The notes under the pieces were generated by a model. The model did not search any database, was not told the origin of the DNA, and was given only the letters and a program-made list of their open reading frames with translations. A stretch of 64,000 bases of DNA from [Leptolyngbya] sp. PCC 7376 (lineage in GTDB: Bacteria > Cyanobacteriota > Cyanobacteriia > Cyanobacteriales > MRBY01), in the NCBI RefSeq assembly GCF_000316605.1, contig NC_019683.1, positions 2,526,036-2,590,035 on the forward strand, read 5' to 3'. This document shows, piece by piece, positions 2,482 to 27,274 of this stretch. Made by a program: the position numbers and the translations under genes. Each line of letters opens with the position of its first letter. The stretch's first letter is position 1.

Positions 2482-5214
2482 TTAGCGCCAACTGCCAACT
2501 AACACATAGGGGGCCCAATAACGAGGCCGTCCGGGATAACGATCTAGTAAGGCTACCTGTGCGCGACGCATTGCTTCAGCACGACTAATGCCCGGTTTTG
2601 CCAACTCTGTATATAAAGTATCGGTGAACAAAATACTGGCTTGGTCATCCACACTCCACAGGGTGGCGATCGCACTTCTTGCTCCAGATTGCACCATGGC
2701 TCCGGCGATTCCCAATACTTCTCGACTATCACCAGTTGCTGTTTTACAAGCACTGAGGATCAGCATTTCTAAGCGAGCATCAGCTTGGCGACTTCCTCGG
2801 AAAATTTGACCCAAGGTATCGATACCCAGACGACCATCCGCAGAAAGGATATAGGTGTTTTGGCGATCGCTGCCAAATTGTCCATGGGTTGCCAAATGCA
2901 CAATATTAAATTCACTCGTTTGCAATGCGTTGGTTAGTGCATCGCTGGTAAATGCTTGATCTTGCAGCAATGTCGTTGGCATTTCTGTGGATTCGATGCG
3001 CGCTAATTCCTTCGTTACTCCGGGAAGATCCGAGTAAAATTGTGCTTCTTCTGGGGGAGGTGTTTCTAGGGATGCGGCCAATACCTGTAGCTCTTCGCGA
3101 GTGGGTAGGATTTGTGGATCACGCACTTCCAAACCCAGCACTAGAGAAACAGCATACTTGCGTACCAAGAAATCATTGCCATCATGGAGCGTTGCCATCG
3201 GAATCAGGCGCAAATTTCCATCCAATACAAAAATGAGGGTTTTGAGATCATCGGGTGATAGTAATCCTTGCTCTGCGGCAGGACGAAGCAACCAATTGTA
3301 GAGAGTTTTACCTTGCTCCACGACATTGCGGCCTTTGGTCAACTGAGCACGATATTTTGTCAGTAAATTCTCGATATCAGCCCGTGCAACAGGAGTGGAG
3401 TAGTGAATGAGATCTGCCTTTTTCGGCAATTTCATGACCACTTCAAGGCGATCGCCCAACAAGATGGCATAGATGGCTGCCGCTGTGGTGTCCTGTTCGC
3501 TGACAACTTGGTCAAGGCTAACGGTTTTATCGATGCAAGCCGCCTGAAAGAAATTTTCTAGCTCGGCCACTTGCAATGATTCCATAACATCGCGCGCCTG
3601 CCGTAGTCGTTCTTGATCCTGACTGGAGGATGTCCCTTGGGTTTTGGGATTGGCCTTGAGTTGAGCTAGTTCATTCACTTCTGGCACAGGATCTACCAAA
3701 AGCTGTACCAATTCCCGATAAATAGGTTCGACCTTTTCACGGAAGGAAAACCGCACATCTGGATTGGCTGTCACCAAATCACTACGAATAATTTTTAAAG
3801 TATTGAAAGCGCGGGTATAGGCGGCGATCGCCTCAGACTCTTGACCTTGAGCCTTAAGTACTCGACCCAATTGCCATTCCCATTGATAGCTGAGATCATC
3901 AGCACGGACTTGTTTGGCCGCAGCTAAAGCTTCACGAGAAAGTTCTTGGGAGATATTCCACTGTTGGGACTTTTCATAGACATGACCCAATGTTCCCAAT
4001 ACCAGAGACTGACTCCGATTATCTTGGAGCGCTTGGGCTTGGTTTTGGGCGGGGATGAGTAACGTTGCAATTTCGTCCCAACTTGGTGCATTAGCAACCT
4101 GATTTTCCCGCAGTGTGATCAAATTCTCTGCCAAACTCACATAGGCTAAAACCTTGGTGCGACTGGGGGCAAGGGTTGCTAAAGAATCTTTGAGAGAAGG
4201 ATAAAGCTGTAGCGCCAATTTCCATTGTGGCAAACTGGGACTGATCAACAGACGCATCAGATTGAGAGTGGCTTGAGTATTGAGTTCTCCCTCGGAAAGT
4301 TTGGTTGCCTCTTGGTAATACCCGAGGGACTGGCGCATAAAACCATTAGCTTCAGAACGTTGCTTTGCTTCCACTGCCGTGTTGAATTTCCCCTGTGCCC
4401 AGTTTCCTAAACTGAGGTTACTGGCTGCCATTAAAGTCGGATTTTGTAATCTGGTTGCAATGTCGAGACTGTCGTCTAATTGAACCTTGGCTTGGTCTAA
4501 ATTGCCTGTGGTGCGCAGATTATCTCCCAATTGTCTGAGAATGGTGGCTTTGGTAAGGGTATCTGGCTGTTCGCTGACGGTTTCCGCTAATGTTTCGAGG
4601 GTGCGGGAAACTTTATTGAATAATCCTTGCGCTTGAAAGGCTTGGGCTTGGTGCAAACGACTCAAGATTTGCCGTTGAGGATCTTCAATTTGACCGTAGA
4701 GTTCCTCCGATTGCTGCCAAGTTTCAATTGCTGAATCGAGCTGTCCTGTGGCGAAATCGAGTTGTCCCTGTACATCTAAAATTTGAGCTTGTACTGCTAA
4801 AGAAACTTCTTGATTTGCAAGCTGTTGTTGAGCCTGTTGGATCGCTTCGTCTGCTGCATCCCACTGACCCAATTTTTGGTAAGTCAACGATAAATTACTC
4901 AGGGCGATCGCCGATTTTGTCTGTTGTCCCTGCTGTTTATATTGTTGCTGGGCTTGCTGTAATAAATCTGCGGCCTTCTGATATTGACCTAGCTGATAAG
5001 CATTTTGAGCTTCGTGATCTAAACTTCTGGGGGTGAGGGCGATATCCAGGCTGCCGGGCGTGAGGGCGATCGCCTCGGTGATTGGTGCTTCAGGTTCGAC
5101 GGTTGCTGATGGCGATAAATATGCGAATACTGGGGTGCTAAAAGCGCAGAAGAATAGCGCCGCGAGACCCAATAACCAATACCGTATTTTTCTGATGTTT
5201 TTAAATCCGACCAT
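2482..5214 (-). CDS. Secreted/membrane TPR-CHAT caspase-like protease (TPS-linked)
   Basis: 910 aa from ATG 5214, which gives a textbook signal peptide (IRKIRYWLLGLAALFFCAFS, then TPVFA) and has a GAG-type SD upstream; a TTG at 5292 would add 26 residues. After the signal come Gln/Ala-rich TPR helices (about residues 70-480) and a C-terminal CHAT domain. The CHAT domain keeps the caspase-like dyad: His in HLATHGQF (about 775) and Cys in LSACKTATGD (about 823), followed by GARSAIATLWSVDD and a terminal YWAPYVLVGSW block typical of the family. CHAT proteins are peptidases, often used in programmed cell death or immunity; export implies periplasmic or surface action. The gene is last in the tpsA-tpsB-CHAT run, suggesting it processes or monitors the TpsA exoproteins (inference). 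Activity is not proven. Confidence 0.88.
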   Translation of the reverse strand: MVGFKNIRKIRYWLLGLAALFFCAFSTPVFAYLSPSATVEPEAPITEAIALTPGSLDIALTPRSLDHEAQNAYQLGQYQKAADLLQQAQQQYKQQGQQTKSAIALSNLSLTYQKLGQWDAADEAIQQAQQQLANQEVSLAVQAQILDVQGQLDFATGQLDSAIETWQQSEELYGQIEDPQRQILSRLHQAQAFQAQGLFNKVSRTLETLAETVSEQPDTLTKATILRQLGDNLRTTGNLDQAKVQLDDSLDIATRLQNPTLMAASNLSLGNWAQGKFNTAVEAKQRSEANGFMRQSLGYYQEATKLSEGELNTQATLNLMRLLISPSLPQWKLALQLYPSLKDSLATLAPSRTKVLAYVSLAENLITLRENQVANAPSWDEIATLLIPAQNQAQALQDNRSQSLVLGTLGHVYEKSQQWNISQELSREALAAAKQVRADDLSYQWEWQLGRVLKAQGQESEAIAAYTRAFNTLKIIRSDLVTANPDVRFSFREKVEPIYRELVQLLVDPVPEVNELAQLKANPKTQGTSSSQDQERLRQARDVMESLQVAELENFFQAACIDKTVSLDQVVSEQDTTAAAIYAILLGDRLEVVMKLPKKADLIHYSTPVARADIENLLTKYRAQLTKGRNVVEQGKTLYNWLLRPAAEQGLLSPDDLKTLIFVLDGNLRLIPMATLHDGNDFLVRKYAVSLVLGLEVRDPQILPTREELQVLAASLETPPPEEAQFYSDLPGVTKELARIESTEMPTTLLQDQAFTSDALTNALQTSEFNIVHLATHGQFGSDRQNTYILSADGRLGIDTLGQIFRGSRQADARLEMLILSACKTATGDSREVLGIAGAMVQSGARSAIATLWSVDDQASILFTDTLYTELAKPGISRAEAMRRAQVALLDRYPGRPRYWAPYVLVGSWR

Positions 5215-5298: not shown

Positions 5299-7098
5299 CT
5301 AAAAGAACGGCACATTGAGCGTGAAATAAAGTCCCTGCTCCTGCAAAGTCTTATCTGTATCACTCTGTTTAATTAACGGAACACCCCAGTCGAACCTTAA
5401 GCTCGCATCGCCATACTGAAGACGTAATCCTGTGCCGACACCCAATAAAGAATTACGCTCTGGATTTGCACCTTGGTTATTCCAACCGACACCGCTATCA
5501 ATAAAAGGGGTTAGTTGCAGCGAAAGATTGCGGTCAGAATCTTGCCAGAGAGGTATACGAGCTTCCACTGAGAGAGCCGCCCCGTTATCGGTGAGCAAAA
5601 CATCCTGACGGTAGCCCCGCACAGTACTTTGTCCGCCTAGGCCATATCTTTCTAAAGACAGCAGAGAATCTGGGGTTAACTGTAAACTGCCGCGCACAAT
5701 GAGGGGAGTATCCGGAGCCAATAGACGCACCCATTGCCCCTGTCCTAACCATGAAAAATAGCGACTATCTGGCACATCCGCATCGTCATTAATGGTGGAG
5801 CCAAAAGCATCAAGACCAAAATTAAACTGCGATCGCACGGCAATTACCTGTTCTGGGCTGCGCTTACTCCAGGCTTGGAAAAAACGGAGAGCACTTACTT
5901 TTGTACGACCTTGATTATCGGCTCCGGCTGATAATGGAAAACCACCGATATTATCAATACCAAGGGACGTTTGAGTGCGTTGATGGGAACCAATTAAGCC
6001 CAGTACTAAATCCGTTGTAGGCGTTTCAATGAGGGGATGTTGCACAGTAAGTTCGACAACTGAAGCTTCCGATGAAGCATCAAGAGCTGTAAACGGATCC
6101 TCAATAACATCACTATTAGTTGTACTGTAATAAGCCGTGACAGAAGTGTTGTGGGGACTGACAGGTAACGTATAGGAGAGATCAAAACTATCGCTACCTT
6201 CTGTGTGGGAATAGTTGGCTGATATCGCATCTCCGTAGCCGATTAAATTACCTTCCCTGACGCTGAGGCGATGGCGGAGAGTCCCGACACTGGGGGAACG
6301 GTTATTGTCTAGTTGATAAGCGACATCAAAAGAATCTGCTTCATTGACCGTCACGACCAACAAATTTGTCCCCGGCACGGTTCCTGCTTGGAGGTCAGCA
6401 GATATGTTTTCTAATAAAGGATTAAGCTGTAACAACTGAATTTGTTCAAGGAGGTCGCTAATCCGTAATGGTGTTTGAGCACCTAACCCCAGACGACTTC
6501 GCACATATTCGGCTTTGAGGTGATCGTTTCCTTCAATGACGATATCCTCAACACGACCTTCCACGATTTGAATTTCGACCACCCCATCCTGCAAAGATTG
6601 TGGGGGAATGATGGCACCAGACGTTAAATAGTTGTCATCTCGATAGCGTTGGGTAATGGCATCGCGGACTTTTAATACTTCTTCGAAAGTAATCTGTCGA
6701 TCTGTATATTGCGCAAAAATTTCAGCGAAATCAGTATCTTCATAAACAGTGCTGCCCGTTAGCATGAATTGCTCGACAGTAAATGTAATACCATCGCCCG
6801 GTAAGGGAACTTCTGATGGTGCAGCAGGTACAAAATCGGGGCCGAGTAAATCTTCGAGGGTCGGTAAAGCAGGTAATGTTTCGGCCTCTGAAGGTTGCTC
6901 CAAGCTAGGGGAGGTTCCCGGTCGTTCTGGCGTCGGAATTTGGGCGATCGCCGACCCAGAAAAAGTCACCCCTTGTAACAGCCACATTCCCAAACCGAGA
7001 CCACATCCCACTGAGGTTTTGGCAATCTTCGATAGGGATAAAGGACAAGTTAAAGAGCGCTGGGTTAAAGCTTTTTGAGAAGAGTGAGGCAACAACAT
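5299..7098 (-). CDS. TpsB: ShlB/FhaC/HecB-family outer-membrane transporter with POTRA domains
   Basis: 599 aa, ATG 7098. A long N-terminal signal region ends near SGSAIAQ. It is followed by a Pro-rich linker and two POTRA domains (about residues 100-260; FTVEQFMLTGSTVY, then DGVVEIQIVEGRVEDIVIEG). The rest is a 16-strand-type beta-barrel containing GQSTVRGYRQDVL, the conserved VRGY/F loop motif of TpsB and Omp85 proteins, and ends in an aromatic residue (NVPFF) as expected for a BAM substrate. It exports TpsA exoproteins through the outer membrane. It starts 66 bp after the stop of the first TpsA and is the only TpsB in the window, so it probably serves all three TpsA proteins. Good confidence. 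Confidence 0.92.
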   Translation of the reverse strand: MLLPHSSQKALTQRSLTCPLSLSKIAKTSVGCGLGLGMWLLQGVTFSGSAIAQIPTPERPGTSPSLEQPSEAETLPALPTLEDLLGPDFVPAAPSEVPLPGDGITFTVEQFMLTGSTVYEDTDFAEIFAQYTDRQITFEEVLKVRDAITQRYRDDNYLTSGAIIPPQSLQDGVVEIQIVEGRVEDIVIEGNDHLKAEYVRSRLGLGAQTPLRISDLLEQIQLLQLNPLLENISADLQAGTVPGTNLLVVTVNEADSFDVAYQLDNNRSPSVGTLRHRLSVREGNLIGYGDAISANYSHTEGSDSFDLSYTLPVSPHNTSVTAYYSTTNSDVIEDPFTALDASSEASVVELTVQHPLIETPTTDLVLGLIGSHQRTQTSLGIDNIGGFPLSAGADNQGRTKVSALRFFQAWSKRSPEQVIAVRSQFNFGLDAFGSTINDDADVPDSRYFSWLGQGQWVRLLAPDTPLIVRGSLQLTPDSLLSLERYGLGGQSTVRGYRQDVLLTDNGAALSVEARIPLWQDSDRNLSLQLTPFIDSGVGWNNQGANPERNSLLGVGTGLRLQYGDASLRFDWGVPLIKQSDTDKTLQEQGLYFTLNVPFF

Positions 7099-7164
7099 GC
7101 AGGTGATTTAGGGCAAAAGTAAACAATGGAAATGATAAAGACGATCAAGGGAGATATTGCAGAT

Positions 7165-10100
7165 CTAGAGCTGGTGCGCCATTTGACAAAAATCTGATGA
7201 AGCGGCTTGTATTTCAGGGCTAGCTAGTACATTCCGATGAGCTACAAAATGCGTATTCCCCTCTGCATCAATTGCCACTCCTTGCGCCTCCTCAAGAGTC
7301 GCTGATGTAGGTAACTGAGTCTGATCCATGAGTGCAATGGGTTCATCATCTGAAGCCAGGACCCACGGTACAGAAACACCTCCCGCACCAATTAAGTTGT
7401 TCTGGCTAGATGGTAGTCCTCCTCGACCACTGACAACAAATTCACTTTGTTTTTCTGAATTACCGAGGTCACAACCGGCCGCAATTTGATCGGTGCGATC
7501 GCCCAAAGTGGCCGGTAGTTCTGTTAAACCTTGACTGGGGTCAAGATCGAGGGTGGAAAGAGTGATAACGCCATTGAGACCAAATTCAGAGCTGGCGCTA
7601 ATATCGTTGGTGAGATTACTTCGCAGAAGAGAGAAAGTACTGTTACTTTGTTCTGTAAAACCAAAAATTTGCAATGCACTGACACCAATATCTCCGCCAT
7701 TTCCTCCCACTGCATTAGCAATAATGTCATTGTTTTGCTCTAGTCTCGCAATTAAAAAACCATCACCGAGACGAATAAGTACATTACCCCCATCACCGGC
7801 ATTTGCATTGCTCGAACTAGCATTGATCAAACTCCCACCAGTCAGAAAAAGGTGATTATCCACGTTAATATTTACATTGCCGCCACCAAGCTCTGACGCG
7901 CTCTCCGCTGATAATTCCACACCATCCCTAAGTGCAAGAATAGAGGTATTATGCACTATCAAGTCTCCCGCTCGCCCACCCATCGGATTTAGAGATGCGA
8001 CAGTGAGACGACCATCCCCACGCAATGTCAAAGGACTATTGCCATTAACCGTCAAACTTCCCCCATTCCCACTACCTGAAGTTGAAGCGTTAATCTCTCC
8101 ACCATTAGCAAAGCTCAAATCTGTGGTTTGAATCTCGATATCACCACCATCTTGGATTCCACTAGTAGAGGCAGTAAGTTCAACACCATCAATAGTAATA
8201 AAAGGAATCTGCAGTAAAAAGCGGCCTGCTTCAAAGTTGTCTTTATCTACAAACCTTCCAGCCTGACCAGTACCACTTGTTTCAACACTGATCGTCCCAT
8301 CACCAGAGAGGGTGAGAGTATCACTCCCAGAATCAAAAATAATATTACCGCCAGACCCGCTACCTGAAGTAGAAGCTGCGATTTGAGCATTGTTATCAAA
8401 TTGAATAGTCGGAATTTCTAGGAATACATTGCCGCCTGCACCAGATCCACTAGTGGATGCCAATAGCTGAGTAGCATCAATCATGGCAGTCGAGGCATCC
8501 TCAACAAAAATGTTCCCAGCATTTCCAATATTATTAGTGCGAGTTTGCAGTTGACTATTACGAAGAACTACTGATTTAGCATCTTGGATACCAATATCAC
8601 CACCAGAATTACTGTTGAAAGTATCACTCAAAATCTCAACATTCTCTAGGGTCAAATTCCCGGTGCTAGTGATAAAAGTATCACCTGATTGTCCTTCTTC
8701 GCCTATTGACTGTGTGATTATCCTTGGTGGCGACATAGGCGAACTGGGAGGAAGAATATATGTTACCTCGGCACCAGTAACGACTTTCGTATCTGTAATA
8801 CGCAAATCACCGAATCCTTGGATGTCAACAATACCAGATTGACCAGCAGATGCAAGGGTAATCAACTCCAAGCCAGAGATAGTATCACCAGCATCAATGC
8901 GAATGGAACCAGAATCAGGATTGCCAAAACTAGTAGCAAAAACAGCATTATCACCGAAGAGCGAGCCTTGCGGAGCTCTGATCCGGATATCGCTCCCCTG
9001 AGCAACGAGACTGCTATTAATTTCAATATCACCTGACTGCGATGCAATTGCTATACCTGTCAGACCATTACTGGTGGTTAGAGAAGCTATGCTTCCACTT
9101 GTAAAAATATTGCCTGAGCCAGATTCAATAGAGATCTTGTTTGAACCAAAACTAACATCATCAACATCTGGAGCCTGCGATGCTGAAGACAAACTTTGAG
9201 TTAGAGTAATAGCGCCAGATTGAGAGGAAATTGTGATATTACCACCAACACCAGCAGTCCTCGTTTCCGACGAGGAATAAGTGTCTATACTTGCATCAAT
9301 GGTGATGTCTCCAGATGTCGACGCAATCACGATATCTCCGCCAGATCCAGCATCAACAGTCTCGCCAAATGAACCAGACAAAATCCCTGCAATTTGTTCA
9401 GCATTTGTCCGGCGAGGATCCTGGCGAATATCGATGTTTCCCGAGGTCGAGCTTATTGTGATATTGCCACCATTTCCGCCACTGGCACCATCACCATATG
9501 GCTGGGACAATGAACGAGCGCCGATCACGCTATAGTAGCCACCAATCAGTAAGATGTCTCCAGACTGGGATGAAATAGCAACATTACCTGCTCTATCAGC
9601 GATTCCGCCAAAGGCAAATGAGTTAGTATCTATTGGCTCACGGACAGTAATATCTCCTGAGATTGTAGACAACTGAATATCACCGCCTTTGGAAGAGGAG
9701 CCATCCTCTGCATCTGATCGAGCGAATATTTCCCCATCGACAAGAATATCCCCCGAGGCAGAAATTGTGACATCTCCCCCTGATCCTGCACTTCCAGGAG
9801 AGTTATTTGCTGCGGAGAAAATATCCTCAACTGCAACAGCTCCTGACATCGATGTGATTTCAATATTGCCTCCTACACCACCATCATTTGATACCGTGAT
9901 CGTTGAAACATCTTCTGCGGTGATATCTCCCAATGCCAAGATTGAAATATCTCCACCAGCACCGGGGCCTCCAACATATGAAATTGCATCTATGTTTCCA
10001 GTAAGAATTTCTCCTGCCAGAGCACTGAGCCGGATGTCTCCTCCACTACCTGCGGTTACAGAATTTGATGATGCGAAAGACCCTAGGCTAGTTGGGAAAC

Positions 10101-11409
10101 CAAACACATCATCAAAAGTATCAGTGGTAATAATATTCCCTTTCGCTTCTAGGATAATGGGGCCGCCGTCGCCCATAAATTGATTAGAAGTATTGATACT
10201 GCCAACAACGATACTCCCCGCTGGCTGGCCTGATACTACACCTGCGGAAAAATTTGTACCTTCAGCTGTTTGCGGCAGAGTATCCAGAGAAAGGGCATCA
10301 ACCCCTGCCCGAAGAATGGCGGCTCGACTACTAGCTAATAGATCTTCATCAGAGCCTGAGCCATCTGCTATAAGGGTTGTATCTGGCCCAAAGATACGGA
10401 TATTGCCCCCTTGAATGCTACCTGTTGCTTCGACTTTTAATGCGGCTCCTGTGTAGTTACCAAACACAACATCGCCGATGGCAGAAATAATTGGGTCATA
10501 GTAGCTGACAATATTACCTGGCCCACCATTACGGTTCAGAAATTGTAAGTTTCCGACACTAGCAAAATGTGCATCTGCGGAAATTACCCCATCACTAATT
10601 AGAGAAAGATTTCCTCCACTGATAAATGGCGTTTGCTCCAGATGCTGTAGCGCCAAGATGTCAATGCCTTGATCACCTTGTAAAGTTAAGCTTCTTCCTG
10701 TTCGCGCAGTAAACGGGTCTGTTGCAGTATCTCTAATCCTCAGCGTATCTGTAGCATGTAGAGAAAGATCATTACCGGCTAACAGTTTCCCTTCCAGATA
10801 AAGATTTTGACCTTGAAGCATAAGATTTTGGCCAGTTTCCAAAAGTCCCACACTGATGATGTCGCCTTGGGGTTGATTATTAAATTGAACGCCTAAGGGT
10901 ACACTCATTGTCAGCAATTCCCCAGTTGCTGGGGTCGCACTAAACTTATTGCCATCAGCAAAAGTAAAACTATTGGCTGTACTGGTAATAAACGAACCAC
11001 TGATATCTAGATCTGCATTGTCACCAAAGATCACACCATTGGGATTGAGTAAAAATAGATTGGCGGTGCCGTGAACTCCTAATAAACCATCGATATTTGA
11101 GACATTACTTCCTGTGACCCGACCGAGAATATTTTCAATGCCGACTGGATTAGCAAAATAAACCGATTGTCCTGTCTCAACATTAAAATCGCTAAAGCTA
11201 TGAAAAAGGTTGCTACCTCGTGTCGCGCCACCATGGATGATGTTGTCTGGGCTAACGATAGAACTCTCAGCCTCGAGGGTATTATCAGGTAGCAGCTGCG
11301 CTTGGCTGGGAACTTCAGAGACTATTGTCCCCACAGCAACTCCTGTAAGTAGAGCAACCCAGCGTGAAAAAGAAAATGTCGTTGTAATTGGATTAGATGC
11401 GCGGTTCAT
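7165..11409 (-). CDS. TpsA1: filamentous haemagglutinin-type exoprotein
   Basis: 1414 aa, ATG 11409. Signal peptide ends around VPSQAQL. The TPS secretion domain (about residues 38-190) shows the family marks: [38 protein letters not shown] and [13 protein letters not shown]. The body is a right-handed beta-helix built from degenerate Gly/Ser/Asp-rich repeats such as [17 protein letters not shown] and STSGDI. The C-terminal roughly 120 residues ([20 protein letters not shown], a Cys in [30 protein letters not shown]) are shared with the two neighbouring TpsA proteins and look like a common C-terminal module. It should be exported by the adjacent TpsB and act as an adhesin or surface fibre. 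Ligand unknown. Confidence 0.9.
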
Positions 11410-11730
11410 ATCGACCCGTTGTCTTCAGAATATTAGCGATCGCCAACCCTAGTAGAACGAAATGGCAAACTATTTGATTTGTGCCGAACTAAGACAAGAC
11501 TATTAGCATCAACTGCTTATATGTCTGCCCCAGGACGATCTCACCCTGTGTATATCTTCTTTTATCAGGATTGTACTAGGCTCAGTGGTTTGATCTGAGT
11601 GACACTAACTATTGTTCGGATTCGTAGAGAACACTCCGGATAATCTGAAAAAATGATTTAATTTGGCGATGAGAAAGCGCCACTATGATGGAGATATTAT
11701 CGTCATTTCAGACCATGGTTAAAGTCATTA
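11401..11730. repeat. Upstream repeat, copy 1 (shared by tpsA1 and tpsA3)
   Basis: The sequence from the start codon of tpsA1 outwards matches that outside tpsA3 at 18791-19066 almost base for base for about 250 bp, with scattered substitutions and a 1-bp indel. Shared blocks include GTTGTCTTCAGAATATTAGC, AATGGCAAACTATTTGATTT, TCACCCTGTGTATATCTTCT and AACACTCCGGATAATCTGAA. A weaker match continues at 11692-11730 and reappears beyond the IS at 20106-20135. It must contain the promoter region of the minus-strand tpsA1 gene. tpsA2 has no such leader. The 354-bp gap between tpsA2 and tpsA1 holds nothing else I can identify. Confidence 0.85.
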
Positions 11731-19066: not shown

Positions 19067-19140
19067 TACAGCAAATTTCAGCCTAGAAAGGTGTATGAAA
19101 TAGTATAGGTGAGTTGACTGGTGAGGAAGAAAGTAGCATC

Positions 19141-19512
19141 TTGCCGAAAGCCTACTCATTAGACTTAAGGCAGAAAATAGTGGATGCCTACGAAAGGGGT
19201 GGTGTGAGTCAAAGTAGTCTTGCCCGACAATTTGGAGTGGCGAAAAGTTTTGTACAAAAGCTCCTCGACCAAAAACGACTGACAGGGTCGATTGCTCCGA
19301 AAAAACGAAGCCAACAAACACCTCCCAAATTAAACGAAGAGCATCAAACAATATTGCGCCAGTTGCTCACCAAGAAAAACGATGCGACGCTAGCGGAACT
19401 ATGTGATGAGATGGAGAAACGCACTGGTCTCCGTGTGGCCAATAGCACCATGCATCGCACCTTAAGAAGAATGGGATATAGCCTCAAAAAAAACATTCTA
19501 TCCAGACCTTAA
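19141..19512 (+). CDS. IS630 transposase, N-terminal part (HTH DNA-binding frame)
   Basis: The frame is open from TTG 19114, but family members begin at the equivalent of PKAYSLDLRQKIVDAYE, so TTG 19141 is the likelier start. It has two helix-turn-helix units: VSQSSLARQFGVAKSFVQKL, and the winged part ending NSTMHRTLRRMGYSLKK. These bind the terminal repeats. The frame stops at 19510-19512 soon after a run of eight A (19486-19493). Shifting +1 in that run, or losing one A, continues directly as KKTFYPDLKATKRVQQARYD into the DDE part. So the split is either recoding or transcript slippage at A8, or a decay mutation. Confidence 0.82.
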   Translation: MPKAYSLDLRQKIVDAYERGGVSQSSLARQFGVAKSFVQKLLDQKRLTGSIAPKKRSQQTPPKLNEEHQTILRQLLTKKNDATLAELCDEMEKRTGLRVANSTMHRTLRRMGYSLKKNILSRP

Positions 19513-19525
19513 GGCGACAAAACGA

Positions 19526-20098
19526 GTGCAACAAGCCAGATATGATTTTTGGCAGAAAATGCAAGCGACTCTAGCGAAAAACTTGATTTTTATCGATGAA
19601 TCGGGCGTGAACTTAGCCATGACAAGACTGAGGGCACGTTCTGAGAAAGGGAAACGAGCTTATAGTCCGAAATCCAGTAAACGAGGCAAGAATGTTTCTT
19701 TGATTGGAGCATTAGGCTTCAAGGGAATGGTCGCTAATTATCATCTGCTGGGGAGTACGGATGGATTAACCTTTGAAGCATTCATCAGCCAGAAGTTAAT
19801 ACCAAACTTATGGGCGGGAGCATGTGTGGTGATGGATAACTGTTCGATTCATTTAGGAGAGTCAGTACGCACAATGATTGAGGCCGTGGGAGCTAAGTTG
19901 ATTTACCTTCCTCCCTATTCTCCAGATTTTTCACCCATTGAAAATTGCTGGTCAAAGTTGAAAAGTACCTTGAAAAGTATCGGGGCAAGAACTTATCTAG
20001 CTCTAGACAAGGCAATTGAGGTAGCTTTTTCCAAGATTACCCTTGATGATATTCGATGCTGGTTTACACATTGCTGCTATTGCACCTCACTCGACTAG
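19526..20098 (+). CDS. IS630 transposase, DDE catalytic part
   Basis: 190 aa if started at GTG 19526; the frame is already coding-like from the A8 run, so it is better seen as the C-terminal half of one transposase. The DDE triad is visible: first Asp in LIFIDESGVNL, second Asp in CVVMDNCSIHLGES, and Glu in YSPDFSPIENCWSKLK after LPPYSP. Together with the preceding frame it would give a protein of normal IS630 length with all catalytic residues, so the element could still move if the frameshift is efficient. It ends within the right terminal repeat. Confidence 0.85.
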   Translation: MQQARYDFWQKMQATLAKNLIFIDESGVNLAMTRLRARSEKGKRAYSPKSSKRGKNVSLIGALGFKGMVANYHLLGSTDGLTFEAFISQKLIPNLWAGACVVMDNCSIHLGESVRTMIEAVGAKLIYLPPYSPDFSPIENCWSKLKSTLKSIGARTYLALDKAIEVAFSKITLDDIRCWFTHCCYCTSLD

Positions 20099-20109
20099 AA
20101 ATTGCTATA

Positions 20110-20308
20110 TTATGGTCAATTTCAAACCGTAATCTTGAACTGTATTAAGCATCTAAGTGTAGATGAAGCTTGGCTTGCCACGATTTCACATACAGTAATA
20201 AAACAATAGACATAGGGGCAAAGCTACAAGATTTCATTCCGGATTGATAGAAGATCACTTATAAGTAAGTAGTATTATTTGCTCTCATAACTCTTTCTCG
20301 GTTGCTTT
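20110..20308. promoter_or_regulatory. Leader of the TIR-CHASE2 operon, right of the IS
   Basis: 199 bp between the IS end and the TIR-CHASE2 start. The first part resembles the end of the tpsA leader repeat. The remainder is AT-rich, with TTATAAGTAAGTAGTATTAT (about 20260-20279), a plausible promoter zone for the plus-strand genes. No SD of note precedes ATG 20309. No RNA gene was recognised. Confidence 0.35.
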
Positions 20309-23300
20309 ATGAATCCCCTACAGGACGTCTTTATCTCCTATGGCCGCGCTGATAGCCTTGGGTTCGCAGCGAAGCTAAATCAGCGTTTAGTTGAGGCTGG
20401 ATTAGAGGTCTGGTTTGATTTTGACGATATTCCGCTTGGGGTGGATTACCAGAAGCAAATTGATGATGGCATCGATAAGGCCGATAACTTTGTCTTTGTG
20501 ATTGCACCGCATTCGATTAATTCTCCCTACTGTGGTCTCGAAGTCGAACGGGCACTCCAACGGAACAAAAGAATTTTTCCGATTTTACATGTTGAGGAAA
20601 TTAGTCGGGAAACATGGCAGGAACGTAATCCCAATGGCACGGATGCTCAATGGGAAGAATATTGTGCCGCAGGTAAACATTCTAGTTTCCCAAATATGCA
20701 CCCTGCGATCGGCAAAATCAACTGGGTGTACTGCCGTGAAGGGGCGGACGATTTTGAAAAAGCTTTTCAAGATTTACTGTCTCTTTTCCAGCGCAATCGC
20801 GATTATGTACATCAGCACACTGCATTGCTCAATCGAGCTTTAGAGTGGGATAGTAATAGCCGTCAACCGCAACATTTATTGGTAGATGAAACGCTACAGG
20901 CATCTACTGCTTGGCTCAAAACTCAGTTCGGCGATCGCCAACCGCCTTGCCTTCCGACGAAACTCCATGGTGAGTTTATTGCCGAGAGCCTGAAATATTC
21001 ACAGGATGGCATGACGGAGATTTTTCTGTGCCATGCTGCCAGCGACCAAGATATTTTGGGGAAAGTTGATGAGGCCATATCCCGTGCCGGTCTGACTGCG
21101 TGGAGTAGCGAACGAGATATTAAATCTGGGGTTGATTTTCAAGATGCGATCAAGCAAGGTATCGAAACAACCGATAACGTTGTTTATTTACTGTCTGCTG
21201 AATCGGTCAAATCATCCTATTGTCAATTTGAAATTGACTATGCTTTATCGCTGAATAAACGCATTATTCCGGTTCTCATTGAATCTATCGATCTAAAAAC
21301 GATTCATCCTGGTATCCAAAAGCTTCAGTTCATTGATTTAACTCCCCTTGCAGAAGGGAAAGACGGGACTGTTGCAATGGGTGAATTGCTCAAAACCATT
21401 CAGCAAGAAGCAGATTACTTTAAAACTTACAAACGCCTATTGGTAAAAGCATTACGTTGGGAACGGCAATTACAAAACCCTTCCATTCTCTTGCGAGGCC
21501 ATGAACTACAGCGGTATGCAGCCTGGCAACAAGTCGCTCAAAAACGTTCTCAACATCAACCCTTACCACTCCAAACTGAATATATTGAAACGAGTCTTAA
21601 ACAGCCCCCTGATGTAGAACTCAATGTTTTCATCATTAGCCATGCCCGGGATCTCGACTTTGCCCGTAAGCTCAATGAGACGCTACAGGTTCAAGGGGAA
21701 AGGACTTGGTTTGAAGGTGATCGTACAGAATTGGGAGATGAATATCTTAGTCTAGCGACCGCAGGGATTGAACGAGCAGAAAATGTAGTGTTCGTGGTTT
21801 CCGAAGTCGCACTAACCGATACAACAGTCCTCAATGAAATAGAGATTGCAGCAGCCCGTTCCAAGCGTATTGTGGCGGTCTCTTATCAAGAGAGCGGATG
21901 GGCTTTGGTCGAACAATTACAAGGTAAAACCACTGCGCCAGAAGAGCCAAATAAACCAGCGGCAGCCTCCCCACTTCCAACAGCTTTACGCAATTGCTAC
22001 GCCGTAGATTTTTGTGAGCATGATGGTGATTTTGTCGCAAATTTTGGCAATTTATATCGTCTAATTAAAAGCCATCCCGATTATGTTCGGGAACATACCC
22101 AGTTACTCATGCGGGCAACGAATTGGGAACAGACGGATCGTGATGATAGTTCCTTGTTACGAGCCAAAGAAGTTGTCAAGGCTGAGAGTTGGCTAGTGGA
22201 TGCGGAAAAGCTTTCTCCGCCACCTGCAGAACTCCATAAGACTTATATTCAGGCTAGTCATGAGTTGTCTGCACGCAAAGTGAAGTGGCGATCGCTATTC
22301 GGTGTGAGTGGTGGCATGACATTTTTGATCTTTATGGCTCGAATCTTCTTGCTACTCCAAGGGGCAGAATTGTGGGCCTATGATCATTTCTTGCGCCAAC
22401 GTCCTAATGAAGAACCGGATGATCGTTTTCTCGTGGTGACCATCGATGACAGTAGTGGTTCTTATCTGCGTGATGGCTTAGTCAGCGGAGAATATAAGCC
22501 TTGGCTAGGCACCTTGCCGGATGATGCTTTGGCCGAGGTTTTGGATGTTCTCAATGAGAATGGTGCTCGCTTGATTGGACTTGATTTTTACCGGGATTTT
22601 CCAGCGGCGAATAGTGATCTCGCCAATACATTAGCGTCCAGTGATAATTTCTTGGGTGTTTGTAAGCTTACGGGAGATGGTGAGAGCAGTGTCCAAAAGC
22701 CCCCAGAAGTCGATATTTCCCAAGTGAGTTTTGCCAATATGTTGGGTGATCGCCCCGGTGGTATCGATTATTTACGGCGACAGTATCTAATGGATTACTC
22801 TGATCCACCAGATTGTGAAACCAATACATCCCTAAGCTTGACCCTTGCAAAGGAATACTTGAAGCAAGAAGGACTTGAATTTACGAGTCCCGCTAAATCA
22901 GAAGGCGGCTTCCGGATGAATGGTCTGCAATTTGGGGATACCGTCATTCCTAATATTTCTCAGGCGCGTGGCCCCTATTACCAATATGATGGCACCTTAA
23001 ATGGCTACCAAACCTTGGTGAATTTTCGGACTGCACCTAATCTAGAGCAGCCTTCGAAAAAAGATGTAGAGCACTTTGCAGATCAAGTCACCCTCGAAGC
23101 CTTACTAGAGAACCAAGTCCCCCAAGAACAAATTGCTGATCGCATTGTCCTGATTGGCTATACAGATCAAGCAGATAATAATACTGATATTTGGGATACA
23201 CCCTACGGTTCTGTGTCTGGTGTATTTTTACAAGGTCAAATGGCAAGTCAGTTGATCAGTGCAACCTTGGATGAGCGGGCATTGATTAGTTGGTGGTCAT

Positions 23301-23542
23301 TGGGTGAAGAATTACTCTGGATCTTGGCATGGGCGATCGTTGGTGGCACTCTTAGTCGGCAATTGATTCGCGGGGAAAGATTAGGTGGTGGCCTAATGAT
23401 CTCGATGGTGCTGCTCTACAGTAGTTGCTGGATCGCCATGATTTACGCAGCCCTCTGGATTTCTTTTATTCCTCCTTTACTTGCCTTGAACCTTAGTGCT
23501 GGTGGCGTTGGCATTCTGAGCTATCGTCTCCGGAATCCCTAA
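20309..23542 (+). CDS. Triple TIR-linker protein fused to a CHASE2 membrane sensor
   Basis: 1077 aa. Three tandem units each contain a TIR domain and a roughly 65-aa helical linker. TIR1 (about 5-100) has VFISYGRAD and SINSPYCGLEVERAL; TIR2 (234-340) has IFLCHAASDQD and KSSYCQFEIDYAL; TIR3 (436-560) has VFIISHARDLD and VLNEIEIAAA. Each keeps a Glu where TIR NAD hydrolases have the catalytic Glu. Linkers share the pattern HTxLLxRAxxWE...LLRxxE...W...P..LHxxYIxxS, known from nSTAND/WD40 proteins. Then a TM helix (about 668-685), a CHASE2 extracellular domain (AYDHFLRQRPNEE, VVTIDDSSG, GLDFYRDFP, RIVLIGYTDQ) and three C-terminal TM helices. Likely a sensor whose outside domain controls cytosolic TIR assembly or NAD cleavage (inference). 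It heads the run with DUF928 and CHAT genes. Confidence 0.87.
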   Translation: MNPLQDVFISYGRADSLGFAAKLNQRLVEAGLEVWFDFDDIPLGVDYQKQIDDGIDKADNFVFVIAPHSINSPYCGLEVERALQRNKRIFPILHVEEISRETWQERNPNGTDAQWEEYCAAGKHSSFPNMHPAIGKINWVYCREGADDFEKAFQDLLSLFQRNRDYVHQHTALLNRALEWDSNSRQPQHLLVDETLQASTAWLKTQFGDRQPPCLPTKLHGEFIAESLKYSQDGMTEIFLCHAASDQDILGKVDEAISRAGLTAWSSERDIKSGVDFQDAIKQGIETTDNVVYLLSAESVKSSYCQFEIDYALSLNKRIIPVLIESIDLKTIHPGIQKLQFIDLTPLAEGKDGTVAMGELLKTIQQEADYFKTYKRLLVKALRWERQLQNPSILLRGHELQRYAAWQQVAQKRSQHQPLPLQTEYIETSLKQPPDVELNVFIISHARDLDFARKLNETLQVQGERTWFEGDRTELGDEYLSLATAGIERAENVVFVVSEVALTDTTVLNEIEIAAARSKRIVAVSYQESGWALVEQLQGKTTAPEEPNKPAAASPLPTALRNCYAVDFCEHDGDFVANFGNLYRLIKSHPDYVREHTQLLMRATNWEQTDRDDSSLLRAKEVVKAESWLVDAEKLSPPPAELHKTYIQASHELSARKVKWRSLFGVSGGMTFLIFMARIFLLLQGAELWAYDHFLRQRPNEEPDDRFLVVTIDDSSGSYLRDGLVSGEYKPWLGTLPDDALAEVLDVLNENGARLIGLDFYRDFPAANSDLANTLASSDNFLGVCKLTGDGESSVQKPPEVDISQVSFANMLGDRPGGIDYLRRQYLMDYSDPPDCETNTSLSLTLAKEYLKQEGLEFTSPAKSEGGFRMNGLQFGDTVIPNISQARGPYYQYDGTLNGYQTLVNFRTAPNLEQPSKKDVEHFADQVTLEALLENQVPQEQIADRIVLIGYTDQADNNTDIWDTPYGSVSGVFLQGQMASQLISATLDERALISWWSLGEELLWILAWAIVGGTLSRQLIRGERLGGGLMISMVLLYSSCWIAMIYAALWISFIPPLLALNLSAGGVGILSYRLRNP

Positions 23543-23617: not shown

Positions 23618-24562
23618 ATGTCTCACTATCAGCCGCGTCGCCAAACAAAACAAAACCTCTTTCGACGAGGTGCTTTAACTCTGGTTTTAGCCTCATCCTT
23701 TGCCTTGAACTCTGCGGTGCCAGCCCAAGCATGGGGGCCATTTAAAGGTCTGTTTAGTGGTGATACCCAAGGTGGAGCCAGCGGAAATTCCCGAGGGGGA
23801 GCGACCCGTGATGAGTTTTGTGAGTCGGATACTCCAGTTGCTAGTGCTGAGGTTTCTCAACCAAAGTGGCAGATTTCTGCTCTAGTTCCCCAGACTGCTC
23901 AACAGACGATGCAATCAGTACCCAGTATTTTTGTTTATCTGCAACAGAAGTCTGAGAGTACACCTCAAGCAAAACTGTCTCCCCAGTTATTGGGTACCAA
24001 ACAAGGGATTCAAGGCATTGAGCTCGAAGATATTAAGTTCGAGGATTTAGAGCAATTTGACGAATCAGAAAATGTGGATTTGCTCCTGCAGTTAGAGCTT
24101 ACACAAAATAACAATAGTGATGTAATTAATAGCTATTATTTTTCTTTGCCAACTGATAATACATTGGTAAAACTGCCAATTACGGATGAGAATGCTCCAT
24201 TGGTTGCTGGCCAGTCCTATGAATGGACACTGCGTTTACTCTGTCGGCAGGTGACCCCCCAGGGCAAAGTAACGCTAGACCAAAGTAAAGCTACGTCATT
24301 GCAGATTAGTGAAACTGAGCAAAGTGCTCTGTTTGGGGAAATTGCTAGGGTTCCGGATAATGCACAAGTACAGTCTGCTTTAACGAGTAATAATTTAGAA
24401 GAACGCTATCAAACCTATCTAGACAATGAACTCTGGTTTGAGTTAGTTTCTGATGTTGCTACTGTGCCAACGTCTACTTATTGGAATGATTTGCTTGAGT
24501 TGTGGAATATTCCTGCTGGTGAAGCAGATCCACAGGTATTACTTCCTTTGTTTGAAGAATAA
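23618..24562 (+). CDS. DUF928 exported protein
   Basis: 314 aa, ATG 23618. A twin-charged N-terminus (QPRRQTKQNLFRRG) is followed by a hydrophobic stretch and an ALNSAVPAQA signal-peptidase site, so it is exported. The DUF928 hallmark GGASGNSRGGATRDEFC follows the signal, then a beta-rich body (SIFVYLQQ, YYFSLPT, YEWTLRLLC) with a second conserved Cys. The family is nearly restricted to cyanobacteria and has no known activity. Its place between a TIR-CHASE2 gene (75 bp upstream) and a TPR-CHAT gene (195 bp downstream) suggests a periplasmic partner of the CHASE2 ectodomain or the CHAT protease (inference). Confidence 0.85.
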   Translation: MSHYQPRRQTKQNLFRRGALTLVLASSFALNSAVPAQAWGPFKGLFSGDTQGGASGNSRGGATRDEFCESDTPVASAEVSQPKWQISALVPQTAQQTMQSVPSIFVYLQQKSESTPQAKLSPQLLGTKQGIQGIELEDIKFEDLEQFDESENVDLLLQLELTQNNNSDVINSYYFSLPTDNTLVKLPITDENAPLVAGQSYEWTLRLLCRQVTPQGKVTLDQSKATSLQISETEQSALFGEIARVPDNAQVQSALTSNNLEERYQTYLDNELWFELVSDVATVPTSTYWNDLLELWNIPAGEADPQVLLPLFEE

Positions 24563-24757: not shown

Positions 24758-27274
24758 ATGATGCGAGTTAGGCAATTCTGTTCGGCATTAATACTGGCTG
24801 TGGTGGTGCAGAATGTGGCGATCGCCCCCCAGACTTTCTCTTCTGAACTTAAGGAAGAGGTAATAGAGAAAAAAGCTTACACCCTCGCAGAGTTACGAAA
24901 TCTCATTCACGACGGGGAAATGGCCTTTCGGACAGGTGAATACCAAGAGGCGATCGCCATCTGCACAAAAGCTTTGGCGGGATTTGAAACCCACAATCAT
25001 TTTGAGGGAATGGGTACAGCTCATAATTGCATCGGTATCTCCCACCATTCCCTCGGCGAATTCACAAAAGCGGTGCGTCAATATGAACAGGCAGCAGTCG
25101 TTACCCAGCCGCTGGATAACCCACGACAACAAGCGGCGATCGCCAATAATCTTGGGGAAGCCTACCGCCAATTGGGTGAAATCGAAAATGCGATTACCTA
25201 TTACGAACAAGCATTGTCGATGATGCAATCATCTCAGGATTTACAAGTCCAGCCAATTCTGATTAATAATTTAGGTTTCGCCCATATGGAGCTGGAAAAT
25301 TATGCTCTAGCTCAAGACTATTATCTCCAATCTTTAGAGATTTCTTCGGCGGAAAATTATCAATATGAAATGTCCTATGCCCTAAAAAATTTGGGGGAAG
25401 TAGCTTTTCGGCAAGGGGAAAACCAGAAGGCGATCGCCTATTTCGAAGAATCACTACAAATTACAAGGGAAATTGATAACCGTCGTGTCACTGCGCTCAA
25501 CTTAAATTCCCTCGGTAAAGCCTATGAAACAACGGGGCAATCAGACCAAGCACTTACTTATTACCAAGAGGCCCTCGGTATCACGACAGCCATGGGCGAT
25601 CGCCACTCCACTGGTCGCGTGTTGAAAAATTTAGGTAGTTTCTTCCAAACCCAAGGCGATACAGAACTAGCCATTATTTTTCTCAAAGAAACCATCAATA
25701 CCTATGAAAGTATTCGTGGTGAGATTCAAGGATTAGAGACTTCCCTCCAAGAAAGTTATCTCAGCAGTGTTGAATCTACTTACCGTGATCTCGCCGATTT
25801 ATTGCTTACCCAAAACCGTATTCTCGAAGCCCAACGCGTTTTAGATTTACTGAAGGTGCAAGAATTAAGCGATTATCTCTACCATGTGCGTGGCACTGAG
25901 GAAACTGAAAAAGGCACTGGTTACCGTCCGCCTGAAGAAACGTTTTTAGCCTTAAATCAAGAGCAAACAGAACAGCTCATCATTGCCTCAAAAAGGTTAG
26001 CAGACCTCGAAAAAATTTCTCCCAGCAATCTCACAGAAATACAGCGCCAAGAATTAATTTCTCTACGTAAACAGCAAAATGCTGAACGGGGTAAGTTCCG
26101 AGCTTTTCTGGAAAGTGATGAAGTACAGTCAGTGATTGGCGAGCTAAAAAGTAACCTCAGCACGAATGAATCTCTCTCTTTCAATCTCAGCCAGGACGCA
26201 AAACTCAAGGAACAGCTCCAAACTATTAAACAATCCGGCCGCAATGCTGCCATTATTTACCCGCTCATTTTGGGCGATCGCCTAGAAATTGTAGTGGTCA
26301 GTGCCGATACCCCACCTTTACGTCATACTGTTCCAATTTCTCCCGCCGAACTAAATGAAACCATCCTCGAAGCCCGCCAAGCCTTAACGACTCCACCAAA
26401 GAGTTACGCCAAATCCTCGAACTCCAACGCATCCCTCTCCAAACTCCATGATTGGCTGATCAAACCCATCGAATCGACCCTAGAAACAGCCAATATTGAA
26501 ACTCTCATTTATGCCCCTGATGGTGCACTACGCTATATTCCCCTCGCCGCCTTATTTGATGCAGATAGCGATCAATGGCTGATCGAAAAATATGACATCA
26601 ATAACATCACAGCCCTGAGCCTCACAGACTTTGACGAAGTGTCGGCTTTGCATAATTTTGATCTGCTCGCTGGTGCTTTTCCGAGTCAGGGAGCCACCTT
26701 AGAATTCGGCACACGCCAAGTGCCTTTAGACGGGTTACCCTATGCCGTCCGCGAAGTTGAAACCCTTGCAGAAACTGTTCCTAGTAGTAGTGTTCGCCTC
26801 GATGAGCAGTTTAATGGTGACATTATTTATGAAATGAATAGCTATGACGTCGTTCATTTAGCGACCCATGCTGAATTTGTTTCTGGTCGCCCCAAAGATT
26901 CCTATATCGCTTTTGGGAAAGGGGAGTTTGCAACCCTCGAAGATGTACGGGACTGGGATTTAAGCAATGTTGCCCTTATTGTCCTTAGTGCCTGTGAGAC
27001 TGGTGTTGGCGACACATTGGGGAACGGCATTGAGGTCTTGGGATTAGGCTATCAAATGCAACAGCAAGGCGCAGATGCAACATTAGCAACCCTCTGGTCA
27101 GTGAGCGATCGCAGCACCCAACTTCTGATGAATCGGTTTTATGAAAATCTTTTAGATGGTGGCAGAACCAAAACCGTAGCTCTCCAAGAATCTCAACGCG
27201 CCATGCTGACCAATGACAAGTTCAATCATCCCTACTATTGGGCATCATTTATTTTGATTGGCAATGGCCTCTAA
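24758..27274 (+). CDS. Secreted TPR-CHAT caspase-like protein
   Basis: 838 aa, ATG 24758, with GGGGAAGAG directly upstream (the next ATG at 24761 is also possible). Signal peptide (SALILAVVVQNVAIA), then about seven TPR units (residues 45-300) of the Rapsyn/LGN type with NNLGEAYRQLGEIENAITYY-like repeats. A linker of charged helices follows, then a CHAT domain (about 500-838). The dyad is intact: His in VHLATHAEF (about 702) and Cys in LSACETGVGD (about 744). The QQGADATLATLWSVSD and YWASFILIGN ends are typical. It differs clearly from the other CHAT protein at 2482-5214, so the pair is not a recent duplication. Probably a periplasmic peptidase acting with DUF928 and the TIR-CHASE2 protein. 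Confidence 0.88.
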   Translation: MMRVRQFCSALILAVVVQNVAIAPQTFSSELKEEVIEKKAYTLAELRNLIHDGEMAFRTGEYQEAIAICTKALAGFETHNHFEGMGTAHNCIGISHHSLGEFTKAVRQYEQAAVVTQPLDNPRQQAAIANNLGEAYRQLGEIENAITYYEQALSMMQSSQDLQVQPILINNLGFAHMELENYALAQDYYLQSLEISSAENYQYEMSYALKNLGEVAFRQGENQKAIAYFEESLQITREIDNRRVTALNLNSLGKAYETTGQSDQALTYYQEALGITTAMGDRHSTGRVLKNLGSFFQTQGDTELAIIFLKETINTYESIRGEIQGLETSLQESYLSSVESTYRDLADLLLTQNRILEAQRVLDLLKVQELSDYLYHVRGTEETEKGTGYRPPEETFLALNQEQTEQLIIASKRLADLEKISPSNLTEIQRQELISLRKQQNAERGKFRAFLESDEVQSVIGELKSNLSTNESLSFNLSQDAKLKEQLQTIKQSGRNAAIIYPLILGDRLEIVVVSADTPPLRHTVPISPAELNETILEARQALTTPPKSYAKSSNSNASLSKLHDWLIKPIESTLETANIETLIYAPDGALRYIPLAALFDADSDQWLIEKYDINNITALSLTDFDEVSALHNFDLLAGAFPSQGATLEFGTRQVPLDGLPYAVREVETLAETVPSSSVRLDEQFNGDIIYEMNSYDVVHLATHAEFVSGRPKDSYIAFGKGEFATLEDVRDWDLSNVALIVLSACETGVGDTLGNGIEVLGLGYQMQQQGADATLATLWSVSDRSTQLLMNRFYENLLDGGRTKTVALQESQRAMLTNDKFNHPYYWASFILIGNGL

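Follow-up and report, generated by a model that had tools for sequence, protein, structure and literature searches.

A TIR-CHASE2 receptor gene within a recurring cyanobacterial neighbourhood of DUF928, CHAT and two-partner secretion genes

Gene content and layout of the locus

A gene cluster in which a TIR-CHASE2 protein stands beside DUF928, CHAT and two-partner secretion genes was analysed in a window of 64,000 nucleotides, comprising positions 2526036–2590035 of the source contig. The genome is a 5.13-Mb single contig whose relatives in a scan of named genomes are cyanobacteria, and all coordinates below are positions in the window. Eight named genes, each above the Pfam cut-offs, form two divergent arms. 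The minus-strand arm consists of CHAT1 (2482–5292; Pfam CHAT, 2.3e-53), which carries an N-terminal hydrophobic stretch, TPR repeats and a C-terminal CHAT domain at about 2491–3315; TpsB (5299–7098; Pfam ShlB, POTRA_2 and Omp85), an outer-membrane transporter for TpsA with POTRA and a ShlB/Omp85 barrel; and three exoprotein genes, TpsA1 of the filamentous-haemagglutinin type (7165–11409; Pfam TPS, 6.8e-45; NCBIfam TIGR01901), TpsA2 (11764–15567; Pfam TPS, 1.6e-46; 35% identical to TpsA1) and TpsA3 (15791–18799; Pfam TPS, 4.1e-44). The plus-strand arm consists of the TIRx3-CHASE2 receptor gene (20309–23542; Pfam TIR_2 and CHASE2), DUF928 (23618–24562; Pfam DUF928, 3.3e-17) and CHAT2 (24758–27274; Pfam CHAT, 6.5e-63), the last with an N-terminal hydrophobic stretch, TPR repeats and a CHAT domain at about 26429–27265. 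Only 6 bases separate CHAT1 from TpsB, and 75 bases lie between TIR-CHASE2 and DUF928.

The gene order agrees with the original prediction, which had been made from the sequence alone, and so does its statement that nothing but an insertion sequence (IS) lies between the arms, where the sole Pfam-recognised genes are two IS630-type transposase frames. Of the two divergent operons that it described, the divergent arms are real; promoter and terminator scans gave fewer sites in the locus than in shuffled sequence, so the limits of the operons are not established.

The IS630-type element (about 19067–20110, plus strand; frames of 132 and 190 aa) is probably incidental to the cluster, because at least 30 full-length copies with at least 99% identity occur in the same genome (40 of 48 candidates scored). 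It was set aside as a link between the arms on account of these copies and of relatives with a short gap between the arms: at locus L161 TPS/TpsB diverge from TIR-CHASE2-DUF928 across 569 bases, and at L178 TpsB does so across 370 bases. Among the copies inspected, three adjoin TPS genes (L046, L047, L049) and a fourth has a TIR-WD40 gene about 4 kb away (L057).

Architecture of the TIR-CHASE2 protein

By profile positions, the three TIR domains are encoded at 20324–20590, 21017–21280 and 21623–21883 on the plus strand. Profile and structure model then place a first membrane helix at about 22301–22357, CHASE2 at 22322–23347 and three further predicted helices behind it. In the model (pLDDT 81.2, pTM 0.57) the helices occupy residues 660–679 before CHASE2 and 998–1018, 1022–1047 and 1054–1075 after it; hydropathy exceeds 1.6 at 665–690 and 1025–1060, marking the first and the last two helices, and the charge flanking the helices fits cytosolic TIRs. 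The hydropathy scan revealed no N-terminal hydrophobic stretch in 32 of 33 TIR-CHASE2 and 22 of 24 CHAT-CHASE2 rows, near-identical or overlapping loci included. The chain very probably runs from cytosolic TIRs through a membrane helix into a periplasmic CHASE2 and ends in three helices. With a CHASE2 domain above the cut-off and membrane helices on its flanks the protein is a CHASE2 receptor, and it represents a variant of this class because TIR replaces the usual kinase or cyclase output.

The TIR Glu, claimed to be intact in the original prediction, is present in all three TIRs in the column that we take to be catalytic in NADase TIR effectors; the claim needs qualification for the third TIR, which lacks the neighbouring Tyr-Cys motif. 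Across the family, counted per row with near-identical or overlapping loci included, Glu is kept in 25/25 and 25/27 rows at the two preceding positions and in 16/31 rows at the last TIR. The single TIRs of loci L185–L187 have it as well, as judged by eye. In fold, the TIR model resembles the TIRs of MyD88, Hydra TRR-2 and SARM1.

The partners of the TIR systems Thoeris, TIR-SAVED and SPARTA are ThsA, SAVED and Argonaute. A PADLOC scan of six of the eight named proteins (all but TpsA2 and TpsA3) detected no such partner, and matches of TIR-CHASE2 to the PADLOC TIR models and to two NCBIfam models lay far below the cut-offs. Hence neither a partner nor a whole-protein model match places the window proteins in a known TIR anti-phage system.

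CHAT, TPS and DUF928 proteins

The His and Cys columns of the CHAT domain, presumably the catalytic dyad, are filled in both CHAT1 and CHAT2, as the original prediction had it, and the domain scores above the cut-off in both. The dyad columns are likewise filled in 68/71 free, 7/7 TPS-fused and 24/24 CHASE2-fused rows, counted as for the TIR Glu. CHAT1, CHAT2 and the DUF928 protein each begin with a hydrophobic stretch; these stretches come from a hydropathy scan, not from a signal-peptide program, and they recur in 117/129 DUF928 rows and in 59/78 of the CHAT rows that are not fused to CHASE2. CHAT1 is thus probably an exported caspase-like protein. Since CHATs outside CHASE2 fusions mostly have such a stretch and CHAT-CHASE2 proteins mostly do not, the module apparently has CHAT on either side of the membrane. 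The window CHATs gave weak matches to PADLOC BovA models (8e-7 and 1.9e-6) and to TPR models. A PDB search with full-length CHAT2 returned 100 matches, of which the 60 shown all cover the TPR part and none the CHAT domain.

The minus-strand arm encodes a two-partner secretion (type Vb) system, with TPS-domain TpsAs adjoining a TpsB composed of POTRA and a ShlB barrel. The three tandem TpsAs (7165–18799) share 32–38% protein identity. At the DNA level, the first ~100 bases of TpsA3 and the ~260 bases before its start are 88% identical, over 360 bases, to the same stretch of TpsA1, a possible trace of conversion or recent duplication of a control region.

The DUF928 protein is a divergent member of its family, scoring 63 bits against a cut-off of 26. 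It is modelled as a beta sandwich to which helices are added at the C terminus (pLDDT 71.6), and the only PDB match below E 0.001 is the porphyran-binding module 8wae (E 5.6e-4; TM 0.63 by target length and 0.25 by query length), which gives a weak, model-based hint of glycan binding. Searches for PDB sequence relatives of CHASE2 and DUF928 gave one match each (E 0.14 and 0.47), neither of them credible.

Clustering within the genome

The genome contains 16 CHASE2, 15 DUF928, 41 CHAT (one below the cut-off) and 32 TPS matches, as well as 19 TIR_2 matches in five proteins. Because it is so rich in CHASE2, DUF928, CHAT and TPS, a chance grouping had to be regarded as a serious rival: close pairs are likely among 41 CHAT and 32 TPS matches in a genome of 5.1 Mb, and four of the five TIR proteins are TIR-WD40 proteins more than 6 kb away from CHASE2, DUF928, CHAT and TPS. 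Nevertheless, a DUF928 gene lies within 3 kb of 6 of the 16 CHASE2 genes (0.22 expected) and CHAT lies within 6 kb of 20 of the 32 TPS genes (2.7 expected), and in neither case did any of 1000 rotations reach the observed number. CHASE2 and TPS meet within 3 kb in 3/16 cases (0.58 expected; reached in 20/1000 rotations). The genome also encodes a CHAT-cyclase-CHASE2 protein beside DUF1822.

In 11 TPS-CHAT pairs of this genome both hits report the same open-frame length, so these pairs are most likely single proteins. Such fusions bear on the idea of contact-dependent antagonism, in which TpsA and CHAT would form a secreted weapon, in the manner of the two-partner secretion pair CdiA/CdiB, and TIR-CHASE2-DUF928 would act as sensor or self-protection. 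The frequent TPS-CHAT proximity speaks for it, as do single frames, 1100 to 2904 aa long, in which TPS and CHAT are fused and the protease-like domain stands at the end of the exoprotein. Contact-dependent inhibition, however, combines a toxin tip with a small immunity gene; the window TpsAs contain no toxin domain recognised by Pfam or NCBIfam, the window CHATs are separate proteins of the exported type, and no open reading frame of at least 100 aa follows the CHATs on their strand as an immunity-gene candidate, shorter frames being outside the search. Antagonism of this kind is considered improbable.

Recurrence in other genomes

Of 98 genomes taken from the phylum, 31 contain DUF928, namely 31/40 of the window's class (own genome included) and 0/58 of those outside it. 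Sixty DUF928-centred regions from 21 other genomes were compared with 40 random regions from 10 of these 21. The 60 regions were picked from the listed rows and represent the listed copies of the more complete genomes with a few from others; there is overlap between L081 and L082, the profile detected no DUF928 in L067, and two regions are shorter than 19.5 kb. The profiles were seeded with sequences of the window, its genome and the genomes G065 and G118, and refined on open frames from both the surveyed and the random regions. CHASE2 was present in 34/60 DUF928-centred regions versus 0/40 random regions, CHAT in 29/60 versus 1/40, TPS in 21/60 versus 0/40, TpsB in 10/60 versus 0/40 and DUF1822 in 11/60 versus 0/40; TIR was present in neither set (0/60 and 0/40). 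A frequent order around DUF928 is DUF1822, (CHAT-)CHASE2, DUF928, followed by CHAT and TPS/TpsB.

The TIR-bearing form was searched for separately. Among 120 genomes of the order, with six candidates scored per genome, 13 matched the TIR-CHASE2 query at ≤1e-60, nearly all through the TIR part, and at least three carry TIR and CHASE2 in one frame: the window's own genome, G065 and G118 (twice). At the G065 locus and one G118 locus DUF928 is next door, followed by CHAT; the second G118 locus has neither adjacent. The scan of named genomes with the CHASE2 part gave 102 relatives, of which 80 loci were kept, all cyanobacterial by title. They include 29 TIR-CHASE2 single frames, in which the number of TIRs is one, two, three or five; those with two TIRs, and L232 among those with one, are situated at contig edges or in broken genes. 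The carriers include Leptolyngbya, Symploca, Nostoc, Anabaena, Dolichospermum, Sphaerospermopsis, Adonisia and Stenomitos.

DUF928 lies within 3 kb of 21 of these 29 frames, in 20 of the 21 on the same strand and in 20 downstream. CHAT is present at 16 of the loci, TPS at 14 and TpsB at 16, with at least one of the three at 23, and DUF1822 at 0/29. When only frames with 3 kb of flank on both sides are counted, 17/18 TIR-CHASE2 genes have DUF928 and 17/18 have CHAT, TPS or TpsB within 3 kb; the corresponding values are 15/19 and 11/19 for other C-terminal-CHASE2 genes, and 9/18 and 6/18 for N-terminal-CHASE2 genes. The window locus itself has DUF928 and CHAT/TPS/TpsB within 3 kb of CHASE2, which is the definition of the module used here. 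The full order TPS-TpsB-CHAT-TIRx3-CHASE2-DUF928 occurs on one strand at L174 and L190, and also at L170 with DUF928 2.6 kb off. At three loci with a single TIR (L185–L187), TIR-CHASE2 and DUF928 are accompanied by a TPS-CHAT single frame of 2362–2904 aa. By their gene content and order, CHASE2, DUF928, exported-type CHAT and TpsA/TpsB constitute one recurring cyanobacterial neighbourhood, in which the domain fused to CHASE2 varies.

The original prediction had proposed such a survey as a check on whether these genes belong to one system, and the outcome favours it: CHASE2, CHAT, TPS, TpsB and DUF1822 gather around DUF928 and are nearly absent from random regions, and TIR-CHASE2 keeps its DUF928 and CHAT/TPS genes in other genera. 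The independent scatter of the families that would have spoken against it was not seen, though 26/60 DUF928 regions lack CHASE2. Chance clustering is rejected by the rotations, the comparison with random regions and the recurrence in other genera, together with the tree co-variation described below, and is scarcely credible as an explanation.

Two further loci were observed in these surveys. L196, on plasmid4 of Calothrix brevissima NIES-22, carries CHASE2, DUF928 and CHAT; because these genes sit on a plasmid, the CHASE2-DUF928 module may be mobile. At L106 a trypsin-cyclase-CHASE2 single protein (6654–9170) stands beside DUF928 and a TPS-CHAT frame.

Co-variation of CHASE2 with its neighbours

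Mantel tests were performed without L041, L042, L049 and L082, which are duplicate or overlapping loci, and without CHASE2 stretches shorter than 250 residues; an additional filter for rows with the same first 120 residues took out no further row. The trees of CHASE2 and adjacent DUF928 co-vary (r 0.54, n = 91 pairs, reached in 0/2000 shuffles), with r of 0.78 among other C-terminal-CHASE2 proteins, 0.66 in the TIR class and 0.37 in the N-terminal class. Shuffling within genomes, which keeps species history fixed, lowered r from 0.55 to a mean of 0.39; among genomes with several copies (47 members) the drop was from 0.48 to 0.22 (0/2000 in both cases). For CHAT and CHASE2, r is only 0.19 over all classes (2/2000), and 118/2000 shuffles within classes reach this value, so that the association does not extend beyond class. 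Within single classes it is stronger: 0.81 in the TIR class (n = 17, 0/2000), 0.47 in the N-terminal class (n = 23, 10/2000) and 0.43 in the other C-terminal class (n = 18, 8/2000). CHAT was therefore rejected as a strict partner of CHASE2. Over the whole set DUF928 follows CHASE2 more closely than CHAT does, and since its tree co-varies with that of CHASE2 also under within-genome shuffling, DUF928 is the best candidate for a direct CHASE2 partner.

One sensor with several outputs

Next to DUF928, the output joined to CHASE2 can be a cyclase, a histidine kinase, a Ser/Thr kinase, trypsin-cyclase, CHAT or TIR. Ten chosen proteins with N-terminal CHASE2 comprise six with a cyclase, three with a histidine kinase and one with a weak kinase-ATPase match. 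Ten with C-terminal CHASE2 comprise five with CHAT (two barely above the cut-off), one with CHAT and cyclase, one with trypsin and cyclase, one with a Ser/Thr kinase and two with AAA_35, the last two having no DUF928 within 3 kb. The cyclase or histidine-kinase domains in nine of the ten N-terminal-CHASE2 proteins speak for CHASE2 as a signalling module of general use, with immune or death outputs forming a subset.

These outputs also invite a reading in which the locus is a general regulator: CHASE2-DUF928 would sense an ordinary surface cue such as adhesion, glycans or stress and tune the secretion of adhesins and proteases, with the TIR array as a scaffold or a mild nucleotide-signal enzyme and without immunity or death. 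The abundance of cyclases and histidine kinases fits this, as do the resemblance of the DUF928 model to a carbohydrate-binding module (8wae) and the degeneration of the last TIR in about half of the rows; in the available part of one report, a Synechocystis DUF928 protein is said to respond to acid stress (PMC5587647). Against it stand the conservation of Glu at the two preceding TIR positions and the nature of the CHAT, trypsin, kinase and TIR outputs, which are of the kinds named as conflict-system effectors in the accessible text of two studies (PMC8195603, PMC10907252). A purely regulatory role is on balance rather unlikely.

In a 48-row CHASE2 tree, the C-terminal rows other than L069, L101 and L118 group with four TIR rows (99/98). 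A 78-row tree unites 28 TIR rows and two CHAT-CHASE2 rows in one set (92/97, below the program's mark of 95), and the nearest relative of the window CHASE2 is that of L161, which shares 57% over the whole protein. The 78-row tree had the exclusions of the co-variation test and also omitted L180, L189, L190, L215, L232 and the N-terminal-CHASE2 rows outside eight chosen sources (nine were kept). A grouping of TIR with CHAT-CHASE2 rows would be expected if TIR had replaced CHAT. By the approximately unbiased (AU) test, a tree that places the TIR forms outside the remaining C-terminal-CHASE2 rows is not rejected (p 0.104), which leaves the direction of the swap unproven; the results neither establish nor reject one common origin of the TIR-CHASE2 forms (p 0.193 with four rows, 0.264 with 28 rows), and these tests fix neither the direction nor the number of output exchanges.

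Proposed role of the module

The cluster is probably one envelope-signalling module, a modular receptor whose cytosolic output here is TIR. Several observations weigh against this interpretation. In the window's own genome one of five TIR proteins lies near CHASE2, which is the fusion itself, and 96/1000 rotations gave a value as high; the TIR proteins there are too few to show linkage. In other genomes, L183 covers 2 kb before and 10 kb behind its TIR-CHASE2 gene and contains neither DUF928 nor CHAT/TPS, and TPS is the only one of these at L172. The DUF928 regions devoid of CHASE2, the loose tie between CHAT and CHASE2 over all classes, the AU result on the placement of the TIR forms, the ordinary signalling enzymes among the alternative CHASE2 outputs and the absence of Glu from the last TIR in 15/31 rows belong to the same side.

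The original prediction had surface damage or contact sensed outside by TpsA, CHASE2 and DUF928 and answered by periplasmic proteolysis and cytosolic TIR output; a sensor role of TpsA or DUF928, damage or contact as the signal, CHAT cleavage of proteins outside the cell and NAD consumption by the TIRs are conjectural parts of such an account. The ligand, proteolysis, NAD output and cell death are presumed steps of the following scheme. The TIRs would lie in the cytosol and CHASE2 in the periplasm, joined by the membrane helix, and DUF928 would quite probably serve as the exported CHASE2 partner that carries or presents the signal. TpsB would export TpsA fibres, and exported or TpsA-fused CHAT, acting outside the inner membrane and upstream of CHASE2, might cut DUF928, TpsA or a foreign protein; this part is tentative. 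CHASE2 would then cluster the TIR arrays, the first two TIRs processing NAD+ or making a nucleotide signal and the degenerate last TIR being structural, a step evenly poised between right and wrong. The response might limit damage or intruders, up to cell death, which is possible and somewhat doubtful. An unlikely extension of this scheme resembles the insect Toll pathway in its logic: a secreted caspase-like protease, CHAT, free or borne by TpsA, would trim a cytokine-like DUF928, which would bind CHASE2 and cause the cytosolic TIRs to fire, with CHAT-CHASE2, kinase, cyclase and TIR receptors as interchangeable outputs of this one extracellular cascade.

Such a module would tie together families that are abundant here without a known purpose (DUF928, exported-type CHATs, TPS-CHAT fusions and CHASE2) and give each a testable place. 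It would also exemplify, in bacteria, a membrane receptor that pairs an extracytoplasmic sensor with TIRs in the cytosol. The recurrence with differing internal switches suggests one modular system that senses events at the cell surface. One sensor and its partner, joined to cyclase, kinase, caspase-like or TIR outputs, would make up a natural series, and swapping parts among its members could show how death-type domains are turned on by events at the envelope.

Comparison with known systems

Animal Toll-like receptors and plant TIR-NLRs couple a sensor to a cytosolic TIR. The window protein likewise combines a sensor with cytosolic TIRs, and the fold of its TIR model matches Hydra TRR-2 and MyD88. 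It differs in its reversed domain order and its three TIRs, and no homology of the sensors has been shown; the likeness is one of working, not of membership. Closer at hand are the TIR-WD40 proteins of the same genome (L056–L059), in which three to five TIRs are combined with at least ten WD40 repeats. Their TIR arrays are up to 56% identical over ~470 residues; WD40 repeats, however, replace the membrane sensor, and neither CHASE2 nor DUF928, CHAT or TPS lies within 6 kb. The CHAT-CHASE2 loci with DUF1822/DUF928 neighbours found here share the sensor set in the tree, the downstream DUF928 and, in part, adjacent CHAT/TPS; they differ in their CHAT output and in the frequent DUF1822 upstream, which the TIR-CHASE2 loci lack.

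The metacaspase-CHASE2 protein of Trichodesmium erythraeum IMS101 has an N-terminal effector, one membrane helix, an outside CHASE2 and three helices, and its authors argue that the metacaspase is free in the cytosol (PMC3501461, PMC2853523). According to the available text of these papers, the topology with an N-terminal death-type effector is the same as in the window; the effector is a metacaspase, not TIR, and no DUF928/CHAT/TPS neighbourhood is described in that text. The same topology is thus already published, and the TIR form is a new variant. As described in the accessible part of PMC8195603, EACC2-caspase systems have variable C-terminal domains, CHASE2 included, and DUF1822 also appears. 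Like the window module they combine a constant part with exchangeable partner domains; in them, however, the caspase is constant and the sensor varies, whereas here CHASE2-DUF928 is constant and the output varies, and no DUF928 or TPS is described in that part. A Nostoc punctiforme cluster of two WD40 genes, one hypothetical gene, CHASE2 and DUF928 shares the adjacency of CHASE2 and DUF928; in the text available it was seen in one of seven cyanobacteria surveyed (PMC5587647), versus many genomes here.

In the literature search, outside which most subscription papers and preprints lie, no work was found that joins CHASE2, the CHAT domain and cyanobacteria, nor was the CHAT domain found together with two-partner secretion or filamentous hemagglutinin. 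Within the same scope, DUF928 came up in a single paper, the one with the Nostoc punctiforme cluster, and the accessible text of the two papers naming CHASE2 and TIR describes no TIR-CHASE2 protein.

Other genes of the window

A second CHASE2 protein, joined to an adenylate/guanylate cyclase, is encoded at 49433–51382 on the minus strand, and profile annotation revealed no DUF928, CHAT or TPS neighbour of this gene. Two AAA_35-type ATPase proteins, one of them with an N-terminal trypsin-like peptidase, are encoded close together at 33258–38213 on the minus strand; the AAA_35 and trypsin domain types of these proteins are also found fused to CHASE2 elsewhere.

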